From the NCBI GenBank assembly GCA_011773845.1, contig WVWV01000042.1, positions 8,251-66,305 on the forward strand: DNA of 58,055 nt. Direction: 5' to 3'. The translations under genes were made by a program, and so were the position numbers. The stretch's first letter is position 1. Each line of letters begins with the position of its first letter. Below, one piece after another: positions 23,357 through 54,296 of the stretch. The notes beneath the pieces are model-generated. The model made no database searches. It saw only the letters and a program-made list of their open reading frames with translations, and was not told the origin of the DNA. Origin of the DNA: Lysobacterales bacterium (lineage in GTDB: Bacteria > Pseudomonadota > Gammaproteobacteria > Xanthomonadales > SZUA-36).

Positions 23357-24709
23357 ATGCCCACAACCCAATACGACCTTCCCGTGCTGAACGATTCCAT
23401 GCGCCGCAGCGCGGCGGCCTGGCTGATCCTGGGGCTGGCCGCGCTGGTCTGCGCCGGGATCTATTCCATTCTGCTGGTGCTCTCGCGCACACCCGTGGTG
23501 CAGGAATTGACGCCGTTCATCGATTTCTTCCACGTGGCGCTGGTGGTGCACGTCGACCTGTCGGTCCTCATCTGGCTGCTGTCGCTGGCCGGCGTGTTCT
23601 GGGCCCTGGGCGCGGACCGCGAACTGCCGGCCTGGGACCGCACGTCGTTCTGGCTGGCCGCCGCGGGCACCGCGATCGTGATCCTGGCCCCGTTCCTGGG
23701 TGCCGGGCGACCGCTAATGAACAACTACGTGCCGCTTCTTCAGCATCCGGTGTTCTATGCCGGCCTGGCCCTGTTCGCGGCGGGCAGCTGCAGCCACCTG
23801 CTGCGCTCGCTGCTGGGCGGACGGCCACCCCGCCCGCTCGACGGTCCGGCCGCGCTGCATCATGGCATCCGGTTCTCGGCCGTGGTCACGGCCATCGCGA
23901 TCGCCGCCTTCGGGGCCTCGTGGGCCGGCATGTCCACTGCCATGGATGGACAGGTCTTTTTCGAGTTCCTGTTCTGGGGCGGCGGGCACGTGCTGCAATT
24001 CACCTACACACTGCTGATGATGATCGCCTGGGTGGTGCTGGCCTCCGCCAGCGGCTGCCACTTCGAACTGACGCCGCGGCTGACCCTGACCTTCCTGCTG
24101 CTGCTCGCGCTGCCGGTCATCACCGTGCCGTTTCTGTATGCCGCCCACGACGTCGTGTCCCCCGGCCACCGGCTGGCATTCACCGAGCTGATGAAATACG
24201 GGGGGCTGTCCTGCCTGCCGCTGGGCGCCGCGGTGCTGGCCAGCCTGTTCCGGGCCCAGCCTCCGGTCGGGCCGGCCCGCTACCTGAGGGCGGCTTTGCT
24301 GTCCTCGCTGGTGCTGTTCGCGGTCGGGGGTGTTCTGGGTTTCATGGTCTCCGGATTGGACATCGTGATCCCGGCCCATTACCACGGCTCGACCGTGGGC
24401 GTCACCATCGCCCTCATGGGGCTCAGCTACCACCTGCTGCCGCGCCTGGGGTTCGGGCCGCCGCACCAGCGCCTGGCCTTCTGGCAGCCGGTGGTCTATG
24501 GCGGCGGGCAGTTGATGCACATCGTCGGCCTGGCCTGGTCCGGCGGTTACGGCGTGCAACGCAAGGCCGCCGGGCTGGCCCAGGGCCTGGACCGCGTCGG
24601 CGAGATCGCCGGCATGGGGCTGATGGGCCTGGGCGGCCTGGTGTCCGTGATCGGCGGGGTCATGTACCTGGTCGTGGCCTACCTGTCGATCGCCGCGCGG
24701 AGGCCATGA
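23357..24709 (+). CDS. Orphan haem-copper oxidase subunit I-like membrane protein
   Basis: A 450-aa protein with about 12 helices. Helix II carries FFHVALVVHVDL, helix VI GGGHVLQF, and helix X the HxH haem pair in IPAHYHGSTVG followed by LSYHLLPRLG. These mark the haem-copper superfamily. The CuB site looks incomplete: the His-His of helix VII is reduced to one His (YAAHDVVSPG), and the position four after the helix VI His is Phe, not Tyr. No subunit II or cytochrome c is adjacent, only a 61-aa membrane protein overlapping at ATGA. It may be an NO-reductase-like or regulatory homologue. Catalytic type is unknown. Confidence 0.75.
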   Translation: MPTTQYDLPVLNDSMRRSAAAWLILGLAALVCAGIYSILLVLSRTPVVQELTPFIDFFHVALVVHVDLSVLIWLLSLAGVFWALGADRELPAWDRTSFWLAAAGTAIVILAPFLGAGRPLMNNYVPLLQHPVFYAGLALFAAGSCSHLLRSLLGGRPPRPLDGPAALHHGIRFSAVVTAIAIAAFGASWAGMSTAMDGQVFFEFLFWGGGHVLQFTYTLLMMIAWVVLASASGCHFELTPRLTLTFLLLLALPVITVPFLYAAHDVVSPGHRLAFTELMKYGGLSCLPLGAAVLASLFRAQPPVGPARYLRAALLSSLVLFAVGGVLGFMVSGLDIVIPAHYHGSTVGVTIALMGLSYHLLPRLGFGPPHQRLAFWQPVVYGGGQLMHIVGLAWSGGYGVQRKAAGLAQGLDRVGEIAGMGLMGLGGLVSVIGGVMYLVVAYLSIAARRP

Positions 24710-31319: not shown

Positions 31320-31715
31320 TCAGGTGTGAATGCGGTCGTGCAGCCGTGCGTCGAAGGTGGCGAAGTGCCGCCCGAACCAATCGGCAAGCCGTTGTTGCAA
31401 CAAACGCAGGCCGGCTTCCCGATCCTCGTCGAAACGATCCATGAAGTCGCGAATCTGGTCCAGCAAGTCCTCGTGGTCTTCCTTGTGCGCCCCGTACTCG
31501 GGGTAGTTTGAGCGCAGCATCAACTGCTCCTCCAGCGCGAAATGCGCCGCGATGCCGGCGTGGATCTCGCCCAGGAAACGCTCGATCGCCGCAGTATCGG
31601 CGTCGCTGCCCATGCGCTCATAGCACTCGTTGATCAACCCGATCATTTCCCGGTGCTCGAGATCCACCGCGGGGATGGCCAGTGAATAGGCGGGTTTCCA
31701 TTGCAGAAGTGTCAT
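31320..31715 (-). CDS. Bacteriohemerythrin
   Basis: A 131-aa four-helix non-haem di-iron protein with every ligand in place: His21, His58 with Glu62 (HxxxE), His77 with His81 (HxxxH), and His117 with Asp122 (HxxxxD). Hemerythrins bind O2 and react with NO, storing or delivering gas to membrane enzymes. It begins four bases after the stop of the cytochrome b fusion gene and so belongs to the SCO / cytochrome b unit. That placement beside a haem-copper enzyme suggests gas delivery or protection. Confidence 0.92.
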   Translation of the reverse strand: MTLLQWKPAYSLAIPAVDLEHREMIGLINECYERMGSDADTAAIERFLGEIHAGIAAHFALEEQLMLRSNYPEYGAHKEDHEDLLDQIRDFMDRFDEDREAGLRLLQQRLADWFGRHFATFDARLHDRIHT

Positions 31716-31719
31716 ATCG

Positions 31720-33759
31720 CTACCTGAAGACGAATCGCTGATCCACGTGATCGAATTCCGCCACCAGGTGCTGGCCACTGGCCAGGGGCACCTGTTGTCG
31801 CAATTCGAAATCGAATCCCTGCGCGCGGCCACTATCCCGCATGCCGATGAACAGCTCGTGGCTGCCGGCCGGCACCTCGAAGCGGCGATACACGGTGGAT
31901 TCGCCGTCTTTCCAGATGCCGCTCGGCGGGTGCGCCCGGCGGTGCAGGGTTTCGCCATCCACGCGAAATTCCACCCATACGGGCAGGCGTTCCCGCGGGC
32001 AGTCGATCGGATTGCGCATGTTCGGAGCGAGGCGCTGCAGCTCCTCCTGGCTCAGGCGACGGCACTCGTGCACCCGCTGCCCGGCCCGCGAGAAGGTCAA
32101 TGAAACCATCGCCTGCCCGGGCTCCAGCAGGCGGTAGGGCGGCCACACCGACAGCGCCGCCACCACCGCGGCAAACGCACCCCAGGCCGCGGCTTGCGCC
32201 AGGCGCCGGCGGCCGGCCGCGGGCGATGCGGCAGCAGGAGATCCCAGCGAGCGCCGGAAGTCCGCCAGCAACCGCCGCAGGTCGGTATGCGCCTGCCATC
32301 GATCGCTCCAGGCCAGGGCAATGCGTTCGCCCGGCACCCGTTTGCGCAGGCGCGGGTCACGCTCGCGCTCGAGGCGCTGCCGGGTCCAGCGCATGCCGAA
32401 GCGGTACTGGCAGTCGCCCGCGCGGCAGCCCGCCAGCACGATGCCGTCGGCCAGCCCCCGGCTCAACACCCAGTCGACGAACGCCGGCGGCAGCTGGGCC
32501 ATGCATTCCAGCCGAACCGCGGCGGTCTGGTGGTCCTCCAGCCGCCTCAGCCCCCGGCTGCCCGCGCAACCGAAGACCAGCACCCGCTGTGTGCCTGCGA
32601 GCCGCTCTGCGCGTTCGCGGATCTCCTCCCGCAACCCGGCCAGCGGCTGGTCCGGCAGGTCGATGCCCGGCACCAGGGCGGTGCGGGTCCGGAACGGCGT
32701 GGCGGTGGGGCAGGCACCGACGCAGATGCCGCACGCCAGGCACAGGGTGGGGTCCACCACCGCCTCGCTGGCATACGCGGTCCCGTCGCTGCGGGGCTCC
32801 ATGGTGATGGCCCCGAACGGGCAGTCGACCGCGCAGCGCTCGCAGCCGTTGCAGTTGCCGAGGTCCACCTGGGCCGACCGGCGGTCCCGCCCGGGTGGCA
32901 GCCAGGGCGCGAGGCACAGCAACAGGCTGATGCCGAGGAGCAGCGCCCACACTGCGCCCGCTGGCCAGGCTTGCATCAGCGGGTAGACCAGCAGGTAATA
33001 CCAATCGAAGGCCAGCGCCTCAGGCACCTGCGCGGGGTCGGCCTTGCCCTGGCTCACGGCCGGGTAAACCAGCGATGCCAGCAGCATCGCCAGCAACGAG
33101 CCGGCCATCAGCACGCGCGGCGGATTGATCTGGGGCCCGTTGAGCCGGAACACGTGCAGCCAGATGCCGAACACCAGGAACAGTGGCAGGCCGATCAGGT
33201 GCAGAAACGCCATCAAGGTGAAGAACCGGTCACTGAGCGCCTCCACGGTAAGGAAATTACGCGCCATGGAATCCGTGAAGATCGGCAGCCGGTCGAGCAA
33301 CTCCGCCGAGGTGATGGCCACATAGTGCGCCAGCTGGTCCCACACCAGCCAGTAACCGGTGATGCCGAGCGGAAACACCAGCCACAGCAGCGGCACGCCC
33401 GTCACCCAGTTGAACCAGCGGGCGCCGCGGTACCGATCATGCGCGAACTCCTTGAGGATGTGCAGTGCCAGCGTGATGATGGCCGCGTCCGAGGCGTAGC
33501 GATGCAGGCTACGCATCACCCCGCCGAGGTACCACTGCTGGTGGGTCAGATATTCGACCGATTCCCAGGCACCGTCGACGCTGGTGCGGAAGAAGATGAA
33601 CAGCCAGATGCCGCTGACCAGCACGATCCAGAAGAAAAAGATGGTCAGCGCGCCGAGGTGGTGCAAGGGATTCAGGGCTGCCGGAGGAAAGCTGCGCGCG
33701 AGGACGAAGCGCAGCGGCTCCAGCGCCAGGCGCAGGAATTTGTGCAGCAGTGCGAGCAA
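31720..33759 (-). CDS. Cytochrome b6-like / 2x[4Fe-4S] ferredoxin / FlpD-MvhD fusion, membrane redox protein
   Basis: A roughly 679-aa fusion. Residues 1-235 are a cytochrome b domain with haem ligands His86/His100 and His187/His202; the second pair has 14 residues between, as in b6. More helices run to about 285. Residues 300-355 hold two ferredoxin clusters (C303, C306, C309, C313; C340, C343, C346, C350). Residues 392-500 match FlpD/MvhD (GCAG, then GCRAGDCQYRFG), with Cys398, 419, 445 and 450. One more helix (about 521-540) precedes an unassigned tail. It probably moves electrons between quinone and a soluble carrier. The start is uncertain: TTG at 33759, 12 bases after the SCO stop, is the only near choice. 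Confidence 0.8.
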   Translation of the reverse strand: MLALLHKFLRLALEPLRFVLARSFPPAALNPLHHLGALTIFFFWIVLVSGIWLFIFFRTSVDGAWESVEYLTHQQWYLGGVMRSLHRYASDAAIITLALHILKEFAHDRYRGARWFNWVTGVPLLWLVFPLGITGYWLVWDQLAHYVAITSAELLDRLPIFTDSMARNFLTVEALSDRFFTLMAFLHLIGLPLFLVFGIWLHVFRLNGPQINPPRVLMAGSLLAMLLASLVYPAVSQGKADPAQVPEALAFDWYYLLVYPLMQAWPAGAVWALLLGISLLLCLAPWLPPGRDRRSAQVDLGNCNGCERCAVDCPFGAITMEPRSDGTAYASEAVVDPTLCLACGICVGACPTATPFRTRTALVPGIDLPDQPLAGLREEIRERAERLAGTQRVLVFGCAGSRGLRRLEDHQTAAVRLECMAQLPPAFVDWVLSRGLADGIVLAGCRAGDCQYRFGMRWTRQRLERERDPRLRKRVPGERIALAWSDRWQAHTDLRRLLADFRRSLGSPAAASPAAGRRRLAQAAAWGAFAAVVAALSVWPPYRLLEPGQAMVSLTFSRAGQRVHECRRLSQEELQRLAPNMRNPIDCPRERLPVWVEFRVDGETLHRRAHPPSGIWKDGESTVYRRFEVPAGSHELFIGMRDSGRAQGFDFELRQQVPLASGQHLVAEFDHVDQRFVFR

Positions 33760-33770
33760 GGCGCAACCGT

Positions 33771-34610
33771 TCAGCCGCGGCGCGGGCGCCGCAGGCCCCG
33801 CCACAGGAACACCAGCACCGTCGCGATCGCGGCCAGGCCGATGGCCATCTGGATGAACAGCGAATAGTCGAAGTGGTACCGGCCGCTGGAGGGGTCGAAG
33901 ACGGTGCAGAACAGGCGGATGCGGTCGACCAGGCCGGCAAACGGCCGCCCTCGCGACTCGGGGCGGTTGAAGACCAGGTCCTTGAGCGGCTCGACCAGCC
34001 ACGGCAGCTCGAACTGCACGCCGTAGACCTGGCTGTAGACCACCCCGCCGGCATCCACCACGCTGACCTGGGTGAGGTGATCGAATCCGCGCGGCGAAGC
34101 GAAATAGATGAATCCGAGGTCAGCGGCCAGGCCCTCGATGGTCTCGGGTGTGGCGCTCAGGAAATCCCAGCCCGGGCGCGACACCGCCTGGGCGCGCGCA
34201 AACGAGCGCATCGCCGCTGGCGTGTCGTTGGCGGTATCGAAACCGACGGTGACCACGTTGAAGGCCTCCTGTCCGAGCACCTCCCGCGCCGCGCCGACCG
34301 CCTCGTCGAGGTGGCGCGTGGTGAGAGGGCACACGTGGTGACAGGAAGTGAAGATCATGCTGATCAACAACGGCTTGCCGGCATATTCCGCCAGGCGCAC
34401 CGGGCTGCCGTCAGGGCGCGTCAACGGGTAATCACCCAGCACGCGTCCGATCGCGGCCTGGGAATACTGCAGGGCCGAGTCGGCATCCCACTGGGCCGAC
34501 CCGGCCGGCTCGGTCGCGAGGCCGGTTCCGGCCAGCAGCAGGGCACACGCCAGCACGACGCGGGCCGCCTGCCGGCGTGGGTTCCTCGTTTGCTCCAGGA
34601 GTCGATTCAT
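33771..34610 (-). CDS. SCO1/SenC family copper chaperone with C-terminal membrane anchor
   Basis: A 279-aa protein with an N-terminal signal (about 17-32), a thioredoxin-fold SCO domain with the copper ligands Cys90 and Cys94 (SCHHVC) and His178 (FDHLTQ), and a C-terminal helix (about 250-270). SCO proteins load the CuA centre of subunit II in the periplasm. The C-terminal anchor is a variant seen in some lineages. It is separated from subunit I by a terminator, so it heads a second unit with the cytochrome b fusion and hemerythrin. The start at 34610 has no clear ribosome-binding site, and an ATG six codons upstream is possible. Confidence 0.88.
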   Translation of the reverse strand: MNRLLEQTRNPRRQAARVVLACALLLAGTGLATEPAGSAQWDADSALQYSQAAIGRVLGDYPLTRPDGSPVRLAEYAGKPLLISMIFTSCHHVCPLTTRHLDEAVGAAREVLGQEAFNVVTVGFDTANDTPAAMRSFARAQAVSRPGWDFLSATPETIEGLAADLGFIYFASPRGFDHLTQVSVVDAGGVVYSQVYGVQFELPWLVEPLKDLVFNRPESRGRPFAGLVDRIRLFCTVFDPSSGRYHFDYSLFIQMAIGLAAIATVLVFLWRGLRRPRRG

Positions 34611-34735: not shown

Positions 34736-36448
34736 TCAGGACAGTGGCCAGACCGAAGCCAGGTACTTCCAGTTGACGGCGTAGTAGATGACAAATATCG
34801 CCAGGAAGAAGAGGGCAAACAAAAAGGTGCCTGGTGCGGCGAAACCCCACCTGCCCGCGGCCGCGTGACCGCCGGACGGGACAATGTCGGGTTGCGCGCG
34901 CATCAGGCGGGAGGTGACCGTTCCATAACTGGATTCGGATCCGACGCGCTTGCCGAAGAACACCGAGACCACCGTGACGAGGATGAACACCGCCCCGCCC
35001 ACGATCGCCGCCATGCCGCTGATGCCCGCGATGCCCATGAGGGTATAGGCGCTCGCCGGATAGTCGAACCCCAGCGCGGAGTCCGTGAAGGCCATGTCCC
35101 AATGGCGCCGTTCGACACCCAGCGTGCCTGCAGCGAGCAGCATGAGGGTGAAGACGCCCATGCCGAAGCCGAACAGGTACGGCTGCCACTTGGCCAGCGC
35201 CGGGAACGCCAGCTGGCGCCGGAACAGCACCGGGATCAGGTAGTAGGTCAATGACATGAAGGCCAGCGTCGTGCCCAGCACCACGGTCGCATGGAAATGC
35301 CCGGGCACGTAGATGGTGTTGTGAATGATGAGGTTGATCTGCTCGGTGCCCATCACCACCCCGGAGATGCCGCCGATGAAGCCGAATCCAATCAGCGAGA
35401 TGAACATCCCGGAGAAGGTGGGATTACCCCATGGCGCCTTGCGCAGCCATTGATAGAGCCCCTTGGTGAGCCCCTTGGCGCGCTGGGCGACCTCGATCGA
35501 GCCCGGCACCGTGAGGCCATGCACCATGCTGGCCAGCACCGCCAGGTACATGGCGTAGCTGGTGTTGAAGATCTTCCACTCGGAGCTCAGGCCGGGGTCC
35601 ACCAGCAGGTGATGGGCGGAGGCGATCTGCAGGAACGCGATGTACAGGAAGAAGGCGGTGCGGCTGACCTTTTCCGACAACGGCTTGGCGCCGAACACGA
35701 TGGCCGCGATGGCGTACCAAACCGCCACGTGCGCCGCCACGTTGATCTGCTGGGAGGAATGTCCGAAGGCCCACCACACCAGCCGATACATGGCCGCATC
35801 GATATGCGCGATCCAGCCCACCGACCACAGGAAGGTGGGGATGAGGATGATCGCGCCCGAGGCGATGGTGAACACTGCAATGATGCAGGCGGTCAGGGCG
35901 CCGAAGGTGACCAGCGGGATCGATCCCTCGTAGGTTTTCTCCTCCTTGGCCACCACCAGGGTACCCAGGAAGATGAAGCAGCCGATCAGGGCGCCCACCG
36001 CGAACAGGATCAGGCCGAGGTAGAACAGCGGGTTGGCCGGCATCGGCACGTAGGAGGTCATCATCACCGATGAATCGCCCCTCAGCACCACCAGGTTGTT
36101 CATCACCGCGCCGGCCACCATCAGCCCGAACGCCACCCAGCCCAGGCGGGGCGTTGCCAGGCGGCAGCGCAGCAGGGTCGAGGAGCAGAAATACAGCACC
36201 GCCATCTCGAAGAAGATGATCCAGAAGATCAGCATGTTGATGCCGTGCAGCGTCAGCAGCTGGTAGTACTGATCGGCCGGAAGCAGATGTATGGCCGGCC
36301 AGCGGGTGAGCGTCACGCCGACCGCGGTGAGGCCGCCGATCAGCAGGATGACCACTGCCACCACGGCATTGGCGCGCATCAGCCATTCCGCCGGGCGGTG
36401 GAATTGCAGGCCCGATTCGGGACAGGTACGGAAGAGTTGAGTCGTCAT
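34736..36448 (-). CDS. B-family haem-copper reductase subunit I, Tyr replaced by Gln (candidate NO reductase)
   Basis: A 570-aa, about 13-helix protein that aligns by eye with Thermus ba3 oxidase: WWxxGH in helix VI, the HH plus VDPG of helix VII, and VPGHFH of helix X. Metal ligands are His68 and His386 (low-spin haem), His384 (active-site haem) and His230, His279 and His280 (CuB). The residue four after His230, Tyr237 in ba3 and essential for O2 reduction, is Gln234 here (GHSSQQ). B-family NO reductases are known to lose this Tyr, so NO reduction is likelier than O2 reduction. It overlaps subunit II by ATGA. Automatic annotation would probably call it cbb3- or ba3-type oxidase. Confidence 0.85.
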   Translation of the reverse strand: MTTQLFRTCPESGLQFHRPAEWLMRANAVVAVVILLIGGLTAVGVTLTRWPAIHLLPADQYYQLLTLHGINMLIFWIIFFEMAVLYFCSSTLLRCRLATPRLGWVAFGLMVAGAVMNNLVVLRGDSSVMMTSYVPMPANPLFYLGLILFAVGALIGCFIFLGTLVVAKEEKTYEGSIPLVTFGALTACIIAVFTIASGAIILIPTFLWSVGWIAHIDAAMYRLVWWAFGHSSQQINVAAHVAVWYAIAAIVFGAKPLSEKVSRTAFFLYIAFLQIASAHHLLVDPGLSSEWKIFNTSYAMYLAVLASMVHGLTVPGSIEVAQRAKGLTKGLYQWLRKAPWGNPTFSGMFISLIGFGFIGGISGVVMGTEQINLIIHNTIYVPGHFHATVVLGTTLAFMSLTYYLIPVLFRRQLAFPALAKWQPYLFGFGMGVFTLMLLAAGTLGVERRHWDMAFTDSALGFDYPASAYTLMGIAGISGMAAIVGGAVFILVTVVSVFFGKRVGSESSYGTVTSRLMRAQPDIVPSGGHAAAGRWGFAAPGTFLFALFFLAIFVIYYAVNWKYLASVWPLS

Positions 36449-36996
36449 GATCCGCCCTCCGTCACGTAGATCTTGCCCACCATGTTGTGGTGGCCGATGC
36501 CGCAGTACTCGTTGCAGATGATGGTTTGCTCACCACTGGTGTCGGGTGTCACGGTGAGCACGATTTCGTAACCGGGCAGGATCTGGGTGTTGATGTTCAC
36601 CGGCTGCAGGGAAAAGCCGTGCTGCCAGTCCATGGAGGCGATGTGCAGCCGGTAGGTCTGGTCTTTCTCCAGCTCCAGCATCGGCCACCATTGCCACAGG
36701 CGGGCGATCAGGTAGACATCGCTGCCGGGCGGCGGACGTACCACGGGAATCTGCTGGTCGGTCTCGGTACGGACCGTATACTCGTTCACCATGGCCATGG
36801 TCTTGGCCTGGAAGGCCTCGGGCGTGGTGCGGTACGCTTCGTTGGAGAGGTTTTGCTTACCGTACACGTGCCACAGCGGCATCATGACGAACATGATGAG
36901 GGACCAGACCAGCGCGATGGCGATCCAGGTCCCTTCGACCCTGTCCAGCGGTTGTTTCCACCACAGGATCTCACTCGGGGGTTGTATCGAACTCAT
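36445..36996 (-). CDS. Haem-copper enzyme subunit II with CuA site
   Basis: A 183-aa protein with one N-terminal helix (about 24-44) and a periplasmic cupredoxin domain. The CuA ligands are His126 (DWQHGF), Cys161, Glu163, Cys165, His169 and Met172 (CNEYCGIGHHNM). It accepts electrons from a periplasmic donor and passes them to subunit I. Its length, with a single helix, matches B-family (ba3) subunit II rather than A-family. It overlaps subunit I by four bases and follows the 54-aa subunit by 20 bases. Confidence 0.92.
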   Translation of the reverse strand: MSSIQPPSEILWWKQPLDRVEGTWIAIALVWSLIMFVMMPLWHVYGKQNLSNEAYRTTPEAFQAKTMAMVNEYTVRTETDQQIPVVRPPPGSDVYLIARLWQWWPMLELEKDQTYRLHIASMDWQHGFSLQPVNINTQILPGYEIVLTVTPDTSGEQTIICNEYCGIGHHNMVGKIYVTEGGS

Positions 36997-37016: not shown

Positions 37017-37181
37017 TTAGTTGGCCAACGGGATGGTCACGATTTCCATGACACCCCAGATGACGTAAAACACCGCCGGGATGACGACGCCGATGAAGAG
37101 CAGCAGGAACGGGTTTTCCAGAATCCGCTGCATCACGGGCACCCTCTCGTTCTCATTGAAAGATGTCACTTCCTGGTTCAT
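37017..37181 (-). CDS. Small single-helix subunit of the haem-copper enzyme
   Basis: A 54-aa protein with a polar start (MNQEVTSFNENERVPV) and one membrane helix (about 25-48, PFLLLFIGVVIPAVFYVIWG). Its position directly before subunit II matches the small subunit IIa (CbaD-type) of B-family enzymes, though sequence similarity at this length cannot be proved. AGGA lies eight bases before the ATG at 37181, with an in-frame ATG upstream that lacks one. It is the first gene of the FNR/DNR-box operon. Confidence 0.75.
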   Translation of the reverse strand: MNQEVTSFNENERVPVMQRILENPFLLLFIGVVIPAVFYVIWGVMEIVTIPLAN

Positions 37182-37234: not shown

Positions 37235-37276
37235 AAGCTAGCACACGATTTTTTCGCGCCAATTGATGCAGATCAA
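37235..37276 (-). promoter_or_regulatory. FNR/DNR-type operator and class II promoter
   Basis: TTGAT-GCAG-ATCAA at 37263-37276 is a perfect match to the FNR/ANR/DNR palindrome. On the minus strand a -10-like TAGCTT lies at 37240-37235, the place expected for a site centred at -41.5, giving +1 near 37228 and a leader of about 46 bases. A second palindrome, TGATGCATCA, lies at 37300-37309 and may serve this or the divergent gene. The box indicates control by low oxygen or NO. Confidence 0.75.
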
Positions 37277-37368: not shown

Positions 37369-38016
37369 ATGCGAGTGAATGTCATGCAAGGCGGCTGGTG
37401 GGTGCTGGCCGGCCTGTTGATCGCGGGCTGCGATCGCGAACCCGCTCCCGCGCCGGAGCTGCACGACACCAAGTACCTGGCCATCGGGGCCAATGGCGAG
37501 CCGGCCGGCGAGGCCGAGGAAGCGTTTCCCTGCGTGCTGGACCAGTACACGGGGCTGACCTGGGAAGTGAAGTCCGACCGGGCCGGGCTGCACGACTGGC
37601 GCAACACCTACAGCTGGTTCAATCCCCGGGAGGCGAACGACGGCGAACTGGATTACCGCGGCACGGCGCATGGCGGCACATGCGCCGGCAGCGGTTGCGA
37701 CACCGAGGCCTTCGCGGCGGCAGTGAATGCGGCTGGGCTGTGTGGATTCGATGATTGGCGGGTGCCGACCCGCGATGAGCTCGCTTCCATCAGTGACCCG
37801 CGCAAGGCCGCGGCGCCGCCCACGATCAACACGGCCTATTTCCCGCATGCCCAGGCCGACGAATACTGGTCGAGCAACGACTACTCCTTCCAGTGGAACG
37901 CAGCCTGGCTGTGGAATTTCCAACACGGCCACGACCGGGTGGAATGGAAAGCCTCACCCCGTCACGTGCGGCTGGTCCGTGGCGAGCCGCGGGCGCTGCA
38001 GCGCGTGAAGGACTGA
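37369..38016 (+). CDS. DUF1566 (Lcl C-terminal) domain lipoprotein
   Basis: A 215-aa protein. The signal ends in IAGC, so it is a lipoprotein. The remaining sequence has the DUF1566 pattern: FPCVLDQYTGLTWEVKSD, then FAAAVNAAGLCGFDDWRVPTRDEL, EYWSSNDYS, and RHVRLVRG. This is a C-type-lectin-like fold found on many bacterial surface proteins, role unknown. It is divergent from the haem-copper operon and may share the FNR/DNR box. The start could instead be the ATG five codons downstream (37384). The haem A synthase gene follows by seven bases. Confidence 0.82.
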   Translation: MRVNVMQGGWWVLAGLLIAGCDREPAPAPELHDTKYLAIGANGEPAGEAEEAFPCVLDQYTGLTWEVKSDRAGLHDWRNTYSWFNPREANDGELDYRGTAHGGTCAGSGCDTEAFAAAVNAAGLCGFDDWRVPTRDELASISDPRKAAAPPTINTAYFPHAQADEYWSSNDYSFQWNAAWLWNFQHGHDRVEWKASPRHVRLVRGEPRALQRVKD

Positions 38017-38023
38017 CCCGCCG

Positions 38024-39001
38024 ATGCGAACGCTGGCTCGCTTCTCGCTGTTGCTGGTGCTCATCCTGGTGGTGGTCAGCGCCTACCTGAGGCTGCACCA
38101 GTCCGGCCTCGGCTGTGCCGACTGGCCGGCTTGCTACGGACAGATCGGTGCCCTCCCGGCGCCCGCCACCGGGGGTGCGGCCGAGGAAGCCTATCGCCGC
38201 ATCCTGGCCGCATCCGATGCCCCGCTGGCCTGGGCCGCGCCGCTGCACCGGCTGGTGGCCACCCTGCTGGGCCTGGCCGTGGTGGTGCTGAACTTGCTGG
38301 CGTTCCGGGCCCGGCAGCACCGGCTGCTGAGTATCTCGTTGCTGGGCCTGACGCTGCTGCTGGCGGCGCTCGGGCTGCGATCCGGTAACCTGCATGACCC
38401 GGCGGTGGTGATGGGCAACCTGGCCGGCGGCTTCGCCATGGTGGGGCTGCTCGGCTGGCTGGCCTTTGAACTCGGCCCGCGCCGGCCGCGCTACACCGAT
38501 ACCCACGTCCGCGCCATCCGGCCGCTCGTCAGGTTGGGCCTGGCGCTGCTGTGCCTGCAAATCCTGCTGGGCGGCCTGACCAGCGTGAACTTCGCCGCCA
38601 CCGCCTGCCCGTCGCTGCCGCACTGCGAGGGCCAATGGTTTCCGGACGCCACGCTGTACGGCGCGCTCAGGCTCGACCGCGCCCGCGCCGTCGACGCCAC
38701 CGGCCACGCGATTGGCGGCCACGAGCGGCAGGCCGTGCACCAGGCCCATCGGGTCGGCGCGCTGCTCGCCGCCGCCGCGCTGCTGGCCGCCGTGATCGCC
38801 GGGCTGCGCGGTGTCACCGCAACGCGGCGGGTCGCGGTCGTGATCCTGGCGGTGCTGGTGGTCGAGTTCGCGATCGGCGTGGTGGCGGTGGTAACCCGCC
38901 TGCCCATCGCGGTGGCGGTGGCACACAACGCGCTGGCCGCAGTGCTGCTGCTGGCGACGATCCGGTTGTGGGTGCTGACACGACGGCCCCGGATGCCCTA
39001 A
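38024..39001 (+). CDS. ctaA: Haem A synthase (Cox15/CtaA family)
   Basis: A 325-aa inner-membrane protein with eight helices in two similar halves. Each half shows the conserved features: LRLHQSGLGCADWPACYG after helix 1 and HRLVATLLG in the first half, and VHQAHRVGALL and AHNALAAVLLL in the second, providing the haem-ligand His residues. It oxidises the C8 methyl of haem O to make haem A. Its placement next to the haem-copper operon implies that subunit I carries an a-type haem. No haem O synthase is seen in the window. Confidence 0.92.
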   Translation: MRTLARFSLLLVLILVVVSAYLRLHQSGLGCADWPACYGQIGALPAPATGGAAEEAYRRILAASDAPLAWAAPLHRLVATLLGLAVVVLNLLAFRARQHRLLSISLLGLTLLLAALGLRSGNLHDPAVVMGNLAGGFAMVGLLGWLAFELGPRRPRYTDTHVRAIRPLVRLGLALLCLQILLGGLTSVNFAATACPSLPHCEGQWFPDATLYGALRLDRARAVDATGHAIGGHERQAVHQAHRVGALLAAAALLAAVIAGLRGVTATRRVAVVILAVLVVEFAIGVVAVVTRLPIAVAVAHNALAAVLLLATIRLWVLTRRPRMP

Positions 39002-50040: not shown

Positions 50041-51486
50041 ATGAGTGACGCCCCGACCCACACGATCGTCTGGTTCCGCCAGGACCTGCGGGTCCAGGAC
50101 AACCCGGCGCTGGCCGCGGCGGCGGCGCTGGGACAGCCCGTCATTCCCGTTTACATCCACGCCCCCGAGGAGGAGGGTGACTGGCCGCCCGGCGGCGCGT
50201 CATGCTGGTGGCTGTTCCACGCCCTGGCCGAGCTGCGCGAGGCGCTGGGCGAGACCGGGCTGCCGCTGATCATCCGGCGCGGGGACAGCCGTGCGCAACT
50301 GCTGGGGCTCGCAGCCGACCACGGGGTGTCCCACGTGTTGTGGAACCGCCGTTACGAGCCCGCGGCGCGCGCGCGGGATGATGCGGTCGAGGCCGCCCTC
50401 GGCCGGGCGGGCGTGGAGACCCGGAGCTTCAATGCCAGCCTGCTGTTCGAGCCCGCCGAACTGCTCAACCGCAGTGGCCAGCCCTTCCGTGTGTTCACGC
50501 CGTTCTGGAAGCACCTGCAGACCCAGGCCGTCGCCGCGCCCGTGATCGTGGCCACGGATCAGCTCCGGGGCCCGTCCGATCGCGTTGCCTCGGAACCGCT
50601 GGAGCAACTGCAGCTGCTGCCAGATATCCCCTGGGATGCCGGGTTTTATACGCAATGGCAACCGGGGCTGGAAGACGCCCACCGGATACTCGCGGAGTTC
50701 GTCGGGCAGCCGATTCTGGCCTACCGCGACCGACGCGATGAGCCTGGCGTGGAGGGCACCTCGCGGCTGTCACCCTACCTGCACTGGGGCCAACTCGGTC
50801 CGCGCCAGGTCTGGCGGGCGGTGCAGGAGTCCGGGGCGTTCGACAGCAACGGTGGCTTCACCTTTCTCAGCGAAGTGGCCTGGCGCGAGTTCGCCTATCA
50901 TCTGCTGTTTCACTATCCCGACACGCCCACCGAACCGCTGCAGGCGGCCTACCGCACCTTTCCCTGGCAACCGGACGAGCACTACCTGCAGGCCTGGCAG
51001 CGGGGGCTCACCGGCTTTCCGGTTGTCGACGCGGGCATGCGCCAGTTGTGGCGCAGCGGCTGGATGCACAACCGGGTGCGCATGATCACGGCCTCCTTTC
51101 TGGTCAAGCACCTGTTGCAGCCGTGGCAGGACGGTGCCCGCTGGTTCTGGGACACGCTGGTGGATGCGGACCTCGCCAACAACACGCTCGGCTGGCAGTG
51201 GACCGCCGGCTGCGGGGCCGACGCGGCGCCCTACTTCCGCATCTTCAACCCCATGCTGCAGGGCGCCAAGTTCGACCCGTTGGGCCGCTACGTGCGGACC
51301 TGGGTGCCGGAACTGGCCCGGTTGCCGGACGCCCACATCCATCAGCCCTGGGAAGCCCCGGAACCGGTGCTGCGCGAGGCCGGCGTGCGCCTGGGCGAAA
51401 CCTATCCCCATCCCGTCATCGGGCACCGGGAAGGCCGCGCCCGGGCGCTGGAGGCGCTGGCGCGCAACAAGGCCGCCCACCGCTGA
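50041..51486 (+). CDS. phrB: Deoxyribodipyrimidine photolyase (CPD class I type)
   Basis: A 481-aa flavoprotein. The N-terminal antenna domain starts TIVWFRQDLRVQDNPAL. The C-terminal FAD-binding domain includes EGTSRLSPYLHWGQLGPRQVW, EVAWREFAYHLLFHYPD, VDAGMRQLWRSGWMHNRVRMI, and DADLANNTLGWQWTAGCGADAAPYFRIFNP-type blocks with the Trp chain. It repairs UV dimers with blue light. The SDR gene follows by 21 bases. The region further downstream encodes a second, iron-sulphur photolyase on the other strand. Confidence 0.95.
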   Translation: MSDAPTHTIVWFRQDLRVQDNPALAAAAALGQPVIPVYIHAPEEEGDWPPGGASCWWLFHALAELREALGETGLPLIIRRGDSRAQLLGLAADHGVSHVLWNRRYEPAARARDDAVEAALGRAGVETRSFNASLLFEPAELLNRSGQPFRVFTPFWKHLQTQAVAAPVIVATDQLRGPSDRVASEPLEQLQLLPDIPWDAGFYTQWQPGLEDAHRILAEFVGQPILAYRDRRDEPGVEGTSRLSPYLHWGQLGPRQVWRAVQESGAFDSNGGFTFLSEVAWREFAYHLLFHYPDTPTEPLQAAYRTFPWQPDEHYLQAWQRGLTGFPVVDAGMRQLWRSGWMHNRVRMITASFLVKHLLQPWQDGARWFWDTLVDADLANNTLGWQWTAGCGADAAPYFRIFNPMLQGAKFDPLGRYVRTWVPELARLPDAHIHQPWEAPEPVLREAGVRLGETYPHPVIGHREGRARALEALARNKAAHR

Positions 51487-52602: not shown

Positions 52603-54156
52603 TCAAAGCTCCTCGAGCCGCTCGAGGTTCCGAGCCGCCGTGGCCAGAATCGCAGACCGCCGCTGGCGGTCCATGCGATCCCAGTTGCGGTAGAGCATGG
52701 CCACCCGCGGGTTGCGGGCCAGGCGTTCCCGGTGCCGCAGCATGAAGTCCCAGTACAGGCTGTTGAACGGGCAGGCGTCGGGCCCGCTGCGCGCGCCCAC
52801 GTCGTAGTGGCAGCCTGCGCAGTGGTCGCTCATCCGCTTGATGTACTGACCCGAGGCACAATACGGCTTGCTCGCGATGATGCCCCCATCGGCAAATTGG
52901 CTCATGCCGCGGGTGTTTGGCAACTCCACCCATTCGATCGCGTCGATGTAGATTCCCAGGTACCAGGCGTCCACCTCGTCCGGCTCGACGCCCGCCAGCA
53001 GCGCGAAATTGCCTGTCACCATCAGGCGCTGGATGTGATGTGCGTAGGCGTAGCGCAAGGACTGGCCGATCGCGGCGGCCATGCACGCCATGCGGGTATC
53101 GCCGTCCCAGTAGTAGTGCGGCAGCGGCCGCTGGTGCCCGAGACTGTTGAGCTCGGCGTAGGCGGGCATGTTGGCCCAGTAGATGCCGCGCATGAACTCA
53201 CGCCAGCCGATGATCTGTCGCACGAAGCCCTCGAGCTGCGCCAGCGAGATCGTATCGGGCGCCGCCTGCCAGGCACCGATGGCGGCGTCCACGACCTCGG
53301 CCGGAGACAGCATCTTGGTGTTCAACGAAAACGACAGGCGGCTGTGGAACAATGACCAGCCGCGGTCGGTCATGGCGTCCTGGAAGCGACCGAAGCGCGG
53401 CAGGCACTCGCGCAGGAAGTGGTGCAGCAACTCGAGTGACTGCTCACGGTTAATCGGCCATGGGAGCTCCGTGCCGGCCAGGGTGCCGAGGGTGGGTATG
53501 GCATGCCGCTCGATCCGCTGCAACTCGTCGGCGACCGGGTTGCGGAATAACAGCGGCGAGGGCAGAGCCTCGTCCTGCGGCAGGCGCTCACGGTTCTCGG
53601 CGTCGAAGTTCCAGCGCCCGCCAACCGGCTCGCCATCGCCGTCCACCAGGATGCCGAGGCGGCGGCGCATGCCCCGGTAGAAACGCTCCATGCGATGCGC
53701 CTTGCCGGTCGGCAGCAGCTGCCCGAGTTCCCCAAACGGCACCAGGAAGTGCTCGCTGTCACAACAGGTTTGCGCGACCGGCAGCGTCGCCCCAACGGCT
53801 TCCAGTTGCCTCAGCAGCCGGTACTCGTCCGGGCGCTGGTATTCAAAGCGCTGTACGCCCAGCGTGGTCACCTGGTGGCGCAGCAATGCGCCCAGGTCCT
53901 CGAATGCTGCCGTCGCGTCGAGGTCCAGATGCTGTACACGGTGGCCCTGCGCGTCCAGCCAACCGGCGAATGCCCGCATGGCCGCGAAAAACGCGGCCAC
54001 TTTCTGGACATGGTGCCGCGCGTAGGTCGCCTCCTGGCGCAACTCCGCGAGCAAGTACAACACACCAGGGTCGCGGCGCCGGAACCAGCTGTGCTGCGGG
54101 TTCAACTGGTCGCCGAGCAGCAGCCGCAGGGTATGGAATTCGGGTGCGGCAGCCAT
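52603..54156 (-). CDS. Iron-sulphur photolyase/cryptochrome family protein (FeS-BCP, (6-4) photolyase-like)
   Basis: A 517-aa flavoprotein. The start LRLLLGDQLNPQHSWF is typical of bacterial (6-4) photolyases (PhrB/CryB). The C-terminal quarter holds the four [4Fe-4S] Cys in YCASGQYIKRMSDHCAGC and later GPDACPF. The FAD region includes GWREFMRGIYW and LMVTGNFALLAGVEPDEVDAWYL-type blocks. It probably repairs (6-4) photoproducts or signals light. ATG 54156 overlaps the TGA of the DUF2256 gene by one base. It is the last gene of the lipid/light operon. Confidence 0.92.
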   Translation of the reverse strand: MAAAPEFHTLRLLLGDQLNPQHSWFRRRDPGVLYLLAELRQEATYARHHVQKVAAFFAAMRAFAGWLDAQGHRVQHLDLDATAAFEDLGALLRHQVTTLGVQRFEYQRPDEYRLLRQLEAVGATLPVAQTCCDSEHFLVPFGELGQLLPTGKAHRMERFYRGMRRRLGILVDGDGEPVGGRWNFDAENRERLPQDEALPSPLLFRNPVADELQRIERHAIPTLGTLAGTELPWPINREQSLELLHHFLRECLPRFGRFQDAMTDRGWSLFHSRLSFSLNTKMLSPAEVVDAAIGAWQAAPDTISLAQLEGFVRQIIGWREFMRGIYWANMPAYAELNSLGHQRPLPHYYWDGDTRMACMAAAIGQSLRYAYAHHIQRLMVTGNFALLAGVEPDEVDAWYLGIYIDAIEWVELPNTRGMSQFADGGIIASKPYCASGQYIKRMSDHCAGCHYDVGARSGPDACPFNSLYWDFMLRHRERLARNPRVAMLYRNWDRMDRQRRSAILATAARNLERLEEL

Positions 54157-54296
54157 CAATCCCGCCGCCGTCGGCGCCGGCAGCGCTCAGAGCAGTAACG
54201 CACCTCTTCCCAACAGGCCGCCCATTTGCGGCGCCAGGTGAAATTCAGCCCGCAGACGGCGCACACTTTGCTTGGCAATGGCTTGCGTTGCGGCAT
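54156..54296 (-). CDS. DUF2256 zinc-finger-like small protein
   Basis: A 46-aa basic protein. The DUF2256 pattern is clear: [37 protein letters not shown]. Two CxxC-like pairs (C12 and C15, C36 and C40) suggest a zinc knuckle. The family is nearly always found beside FeS photolyases or CFA-type genes, as here. It lies eight bases after the methyltransferase stop and overlaps the photolyase start. Function is unknown. Confidence 0.85.

Follow-up and report, generated by a model that had tools for sequence, protein, structure and literature searches.

The evidence from the window, by which we mean the whole 58-kb stretch of Lysobacterales DNA analyzed here (58,055 nucleotides), suggests with a probability of roughly 0.87 that the heme-copper subunit I gene at 34736-36448 (reverse strand) codes for the catalytic subunit of a nitric oxide (NO) reductase of the eNOR type, which belongs to a branch derived from the B family of heme-copper enzymes. 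This assignment builds on what the analysis shows directly: the residues and the CuA site, the membership in one clade, the operon, and the promoter box. eNOR is reportedly a B-family-derived heme-copper NO reductase that was described by Hemp and Gennis in 2008. Its defining marks are a Gln in the alignment column that otherwise holds the catalytic Tyr and a cupredoxin subunit II encoded immediately upstream; it has one predicted proton channel and ranges across the Alpha-, Beta-, Gamma-, and Deltaproteobacteria, Chloroflexi, and Halobacteria; its genes are usually misannotated as cytochrome c oxidase (PMC8756737). It is also listed with the biochemically characterized NO reductases (PMC11388526). 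Membership of the window gene in eNOR appears well supported by its match to the published description, that is, by the Gln column, the His ligands, and a CuA-containing subunit II encoded directly upstream.

The subunit I gene encodes a COX1 protein of 570 residues, as judged from the ORF, Pfam, alignments, a tree, and a structural model. Among proteins of solved structure, it is closest to the ba3 oxidases 7deg and 1ehk (E ~1e-42 to 1e-44), and the first structural match of its AlphaFold model (mean pLDDT 82, pTM 0.87) is likewise a ba3 oxidase (TM ~0.8). The original prediction held that the protein keeps the heme and CuB His ligands and carries Gln where ba3 enzymes carry Tyr, and both points are confirmed. 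His68, His230, His279, His280, His384, and His386 are all present, as seen in the ORF translation and the family alignment, and phmmer alignments to Thermus ba3 and 7deg place Gln234 opposite the Tyr of GHPIVY/GHPVVY. A B-family (ba3) enzyme is recognized by a Tyr located four residues beyond the His of helix VI, and this protein has Gln there. The helix VI motif is GHSSQQ (residues 229-234), which includes the CuB ligand His230 as well as Gln233 and Gln234. The positions first given for it, 35747-35761 on the reverse strand, encode HSSQQ (residues 230-234) correctly and omit Gly229, with which the full motif extends over 35747-35764.

Relatives of subunit I were collected from the family, phylum, and class of the source organism, from plasmids, and from named genomes. 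The contig scan gave 538 relatives, its second pattern also fitting oxidases, and the 80 loci that were read are the counted members. Gln233, Gln234, and Asn236, which lie three, four, and six residues after the helix VI His (H+3, H+4, and H+6), are invariant in the family alignment (114/114); the ten related B-family oxidases in the same alignment all have Val, Tyr, and Trp at these positions. His68, His230, His279, His280, and His384 are found in 114/114 members and His386 in 113/114. In a second sample, Gln is present in 29/29 members and Tyr in all 12 readable, more distant oxidase matches, such that Gln occupies the catalytic Tyr column in 143/143 members of the two samples combined. Among the sampled proteins, all those with more than ~44% identity have Gln, all those with 26-34% identity have Tyr, and there are no intermediates. 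The Gln/Gln/Asn pattern is far beyond chance, and Gln234 is a family-wide trait and not a local mutation. Since the motif is invariant throughout the Gln family, misalignment and sequencing error are ruled out as its source, and the loss of the Tyr is genuine, as originally claimed.

Members of the Gln family span at least 11 phyla and are found in Chloroflexota, Thermomicrobiota, Deinococcota, Gemmatimonadota, Acidobacteriota, Nitrospirota, Nitrospinota, Myxococcota, Bdellovibrionota, Kiritimatiellota, Spirochaetota, and Pseudomonadota. Within the class of the source organism, the family is present in ~35 of 368 sampled genomes. In a tree of 76 sequences (IQ-TREE, LG+C20), the Gln family forms a single clade with support of 100/99, apart from the B-family Tyr oxidases and from the A family, and the window protein is therefore not placed inside the Tyr-oxidase clade. 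The Gln clade contains members from Thermus, Thermomicrobium, Chloroflexota, and Proteobacteria, groups that also appear in the published eNOR tree. The tree and the conserved Gln column thus bear out the earlier description of a B-family subunit I that lacks the catalytic Tyr. As a separate observation, one member encoded on a Thermus thermophilus plasmid (positions 8001-9683 of locus L080) carries Lys where the low-spin heme His of helix X would be, with GHFK instead of GHFH, and is alone in this among the 114.

The genes around subunit I form an operon on the reverse strand. Its first gene is a small hydrophobic ORF (37017-37181) for a single-TM peptide of 54 residues in a position like that of subunit IIa, and a small hydrophobic ORF is found at the equivalent place in 78/84 loci. 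Next comes subunit II (36445-36996), which overlaps the start of subunit I and consists of one TM helix and a cupredoxin domain with the complete CuA motif CxExCxxxHxxM; the full motif is present in 80/80 subunit II homologs, and the gene lies directly upstream of subunit I in 78/80. Subunit I is followed by a gene for an SCO1/SenC copper-site assembly protein (33771-34610, the tblastn span; Pfam PF02630) and by a gene for a fusion of a cytochrome b N-domain, two [4Fe-4S] motifs, and an MvhD/FlpD-like domain (31720-33774, assigned with Pfam, start codon approximate). Both the cytochrome b part and the Fe-S part are present in each of the 37 full-flank loci, which come from different phyla, and are sometimes divergently transcribed; this fusion is perhaps an electron supply. 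Among the same full-flank loci, SCO is found in 26/37 and CtaB (heme O synthase) in 15/37. The operon ends with a gene for a hemerythrin-domain protein (31320-31958, with the true start nearer 31715; Pfam PF01814), which is conserved in many Proteobacteria. Divergent from the operon, on the forward strand, are a lipoprotein-like gene with an Lcl_C domain (37369-38016) and a CtaA/COX15 heme A synthase gene (38024-39001), both of which are conserved in close relatives. Elsewhere in the window, a DNA photolyase gene (50041-51486, forward strand) lies close to a gene for a DPRP (photolyase-related) protein (52603-54159, reverse strand).

Upstream of the operon is an FNR/NnrR-type palindrome, TTGAT-N4-ATCAA (37263-37276), which is an exact match and the only exact copy in the window. 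With up to one mismatch allowed, such a box is present in 22/84 upstream regions versus 0.9 expected from shuffled sequence. We infer that the operon is under FNR/NnrR control, the predicted box fitting regulation by anoxia or by NO. Together with the tree, the conserved column, and the operon, this NO/anoxia-type box lends support to the original proposal that a candidate NO reductase is encoded here.

We propose that a soluble cytochrome c, or else a cupredoxin, would deliver electrons to CuA in subunit II, from where they would pass by way of the low-spin heme to the high-spin heme/CuB site, where NO, as the presumptive substrate, would be reduced according to 2 NO + 2 e- + 2 H+ -> N2O + H2O. 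The heme would be heme A, to judge from the neighboring CtaA. For O-O cleavage, the cross-linked Tyr would contribute an additional electron and proton; it would be dispensable for the two-electron coupling of NO, and the loss of Tyr in the described NO-reductase branches fits NO coupling without the electron and proton of Tyr. Since Gln233, Gln234, and Asn236 show no variation in the family and occupy the same helix turn as the CuB ligand, they probably replace Tyr in hydrogen bonding; they would hydrogen-bond N-N intermediates or carry protons. For the proton path, we take the K path of the B-family ba3 enzyme to consist of Tyr, Ser, Thr, and a second Tyr, and these positions were mapped onto subunit I. 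Tyr245 and Ser307 are kept, Thr is replaced by the invariant His310, and the second Tyr is replaced by Val/Ile, which makes a modified proton path plausible.

The alternative that survives best concerns the physiology and not the family, and it overlaps with the eNOR explanation. The enzyme could be an NO scavenger for defense and not a respiratory enzyme, the chemistry from NO to N2O being unchanged, with hemerythrin and HCO2, a second heme-copper protein discussed below, as NO-handling partners. We regard this as possible but on the whole doubtful. There is no recognized nitrite reductase in the source genome (~90% complete), in which NirS was not found and neither NirK nor NarG gave a match above the cut-off, and a hemerythrin gene is next in the operon; these points would suit a scavenger, whereas the CuA entry and the retained Tyr245 and Ser307 of the B-family proton path would suit an energy-coupled enzyme. 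Because none of NirS, NirK, and NarG was recognized, a point that weighs against the eNOR reading, NO from elsewhere or an unrecognized nitrite reductase must be assumed. A search of the genome for NosZ gave no match, and its control was likewise silent. On the NAR1 plasmid of Thermus thermophilus, a member of the Gln family lies near a nitrite reductase gene. Detoxification and opportunistic NO respiration are both possible roles for the eNOR-type enzyme.

It is very unlikely that subunit I is instead an oxygen reductase of high affinity that can dispense with the cross-linked Tyr. Such an enzyme would account for the complete oxidase-like set of metal and heme ligands, for the SCO and CtaA/CtaB assembly genes nearby, and for the lack of NirS, NirK, and NarG matches, and the FNR-type box suits microoxic, high-affinity oxidases too. 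However, there is no Tyr either at the A/B position or six residues before the His-His pair of helix VII (HH-6), and this latter site holds Leu/Ile in 114/114 aligned members. HH-6 is the position that we take to carry the Tyr of cbb3 (C-family) enzymes, and a C-family-like replacement Tyr is thus ruled out. Furthermore, the Gln clade is separate from every Tyr oxidase, and additional COX1 genes elsewhere in the genome can serve oxygen respiration. A different residue, Tyr269, which is ten residues before the His-His pair (HH-10), is kept in 113/114 members and is specific to the Gln family; it sits a further helical turn away from CuB and may contribute to a proton path.

Least likely of all is that subunit I is an sNOR of the norSY-senC type found in ammonia oxidizers, for the order of subunit II, subunit I, and SCO matches norSY-senC, but the further genes differ and the published residue of sNOR is Asn (PMC8756737 Table A4), whereas the site here holds Gln in 143/143 members. 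No true sNOR sequence was present among the B-like matches from 398 genomes of the phylum, 369 genomes of the class, and plasmids, the readable ones all having Tyr, and for this reason the sNOR comparison rests on the published residue. This B-type enzyme has itself been argued to act as an oxidase (PMC6967387). The same table gives Asn for CuA-NOR/bNOR and Asp for gNOR at the Tyr column (PMC8756737 Table A4). The original prediction had cited CuA-NOR and its relatives as B-family NO reductases that have lost the Tyr: the loss of Tyr holds as a shared trait, but identity with CuA-NOR/bNOR is ruled out by Asn versus Gln, and eNOR takes its place.

The least explained part of the eNOR cluster is HCO2, a B-like heme-copper protein of 450 residues (23357-24709, forward strand), which was characterized by a homolog alignment and a model (pLDDT 88) with the ba3/NOR fold. 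In 37/37 homologs, helices II and X keep their heme His, helix VI keeps its His, and the His-His pair of helix VII, which provides two CuB ligands, is absent; the loss of this pair is seen in a profile alignment to ba3 as well. Gln is found at H+3 in 35/37 homologs, and Phe is found at H+4. Asp or Glu is frequent, and not invariant, near the lost His-His pair, and no subunit II gene lies beside the HCO2 gene. HCO2 was compared with gNOR, of which we would presumably expect a two-subunit operon. The published mark of gNOR is Asp as the active-site residue (PMC8756737).

HCO2 and eNOR genes are 3-6 kb apart in close relatives and 10 kb apart in the window, and they are also linked in Nitrospirota, Nitrospinota, Leptospiraceae, Myxococcota, and Chloroflexota. 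In Fisher tests that are uncorrected for relatedness, HCO2 co-occurs strongly with eNOR in the phylum sample (23/23 eNOR carriers, one by a weaker match, versus 25/374 noncarriers) and, with weaker detection, also in the class sample (22/35 carriers versus 8/333 noncarriers). HCO2 also occurs without eNOR. HCO2 is probably a companion of the eNOR cluster. A more speculative and rather unlikely proposal is that HCO2 belongs to a family not described before, in which two of the three CuB ligands are lost and both heme sites kept, and that it serves eNOR as a partner, for example, as a heme-only subunit that binds NO or relays electrons. In this proposal, the cytochrome b/[4Fe-4S]/MvhD fusion and hemerythrin would possibly feed HCO2, and the NO-respiring complex would be larger than the described two-subunit eNOR. 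In Leptospiraceae metagenome-assembled genomes (loci L110 and L147), a very divergent HCO2-like protein is encoded upstream of subunit II in the eNOR cluster.

Subunit I does not represent a new kind of enzyme, because eNOR has already been described, including from Proteobacteria (PMC8756737; PMC11388526); the family is known, and the gene itself brings little novelty. Its naming matters nonetheless, as NO reductases, and with them sources of N2O, are concealed among the genes annotated as cytochrome oxidases. It had been anticipated that such a gene would be named an oxidase by default, and public records indeed label relatives as "cbb3-type" or "b(o/a)3-type cytochrome c oxidase." The part that would be new is the conserved neighborhood, that is, the cytochrome b/Fe-S fusion beside eNOR and the co-occurring paralog without CuB. 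We found no description of the fusion, hemerythrin, or HCO2 as eNOR partners in the literature searched. If the fusion and HCO2 are subunits, then current views of the eNOR complex and of its source of electrons will have to change.

Among known systems, eNOR shares with the window protein the Gln in place of Tyr, the His ligands, the CuA/cupredoxin subunit II encoded upstream, the taxonomic spread, and the misannotation as an oxidase, and we found no difference in subunit I when it was compared with the published description. The ba3 oxidase of Thermus thermophilus (1ehk) is similar in fold, His ligands, CuA subunit II, and sequence (~25-30% identity), but the window protein has Gln for its Tyr, Gln and Asn for its Val at H+3 and Trp at H+6, and, throughout the Gln family, the invariant His310 for its K-path Thr. 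sNOR (norSY-senC) resembles the window system in its B-type subunit I and in its II-I-SCO gene order and differs in its published active-site residue, which is Asn where the window protein has Gln. The bNOR/CuA-NOR enzyme of Bacillus azotoformans is likewise a B-derived NO reductase with CuA, but its published active-site residue is also Asn and it is reported from Bacillota only.
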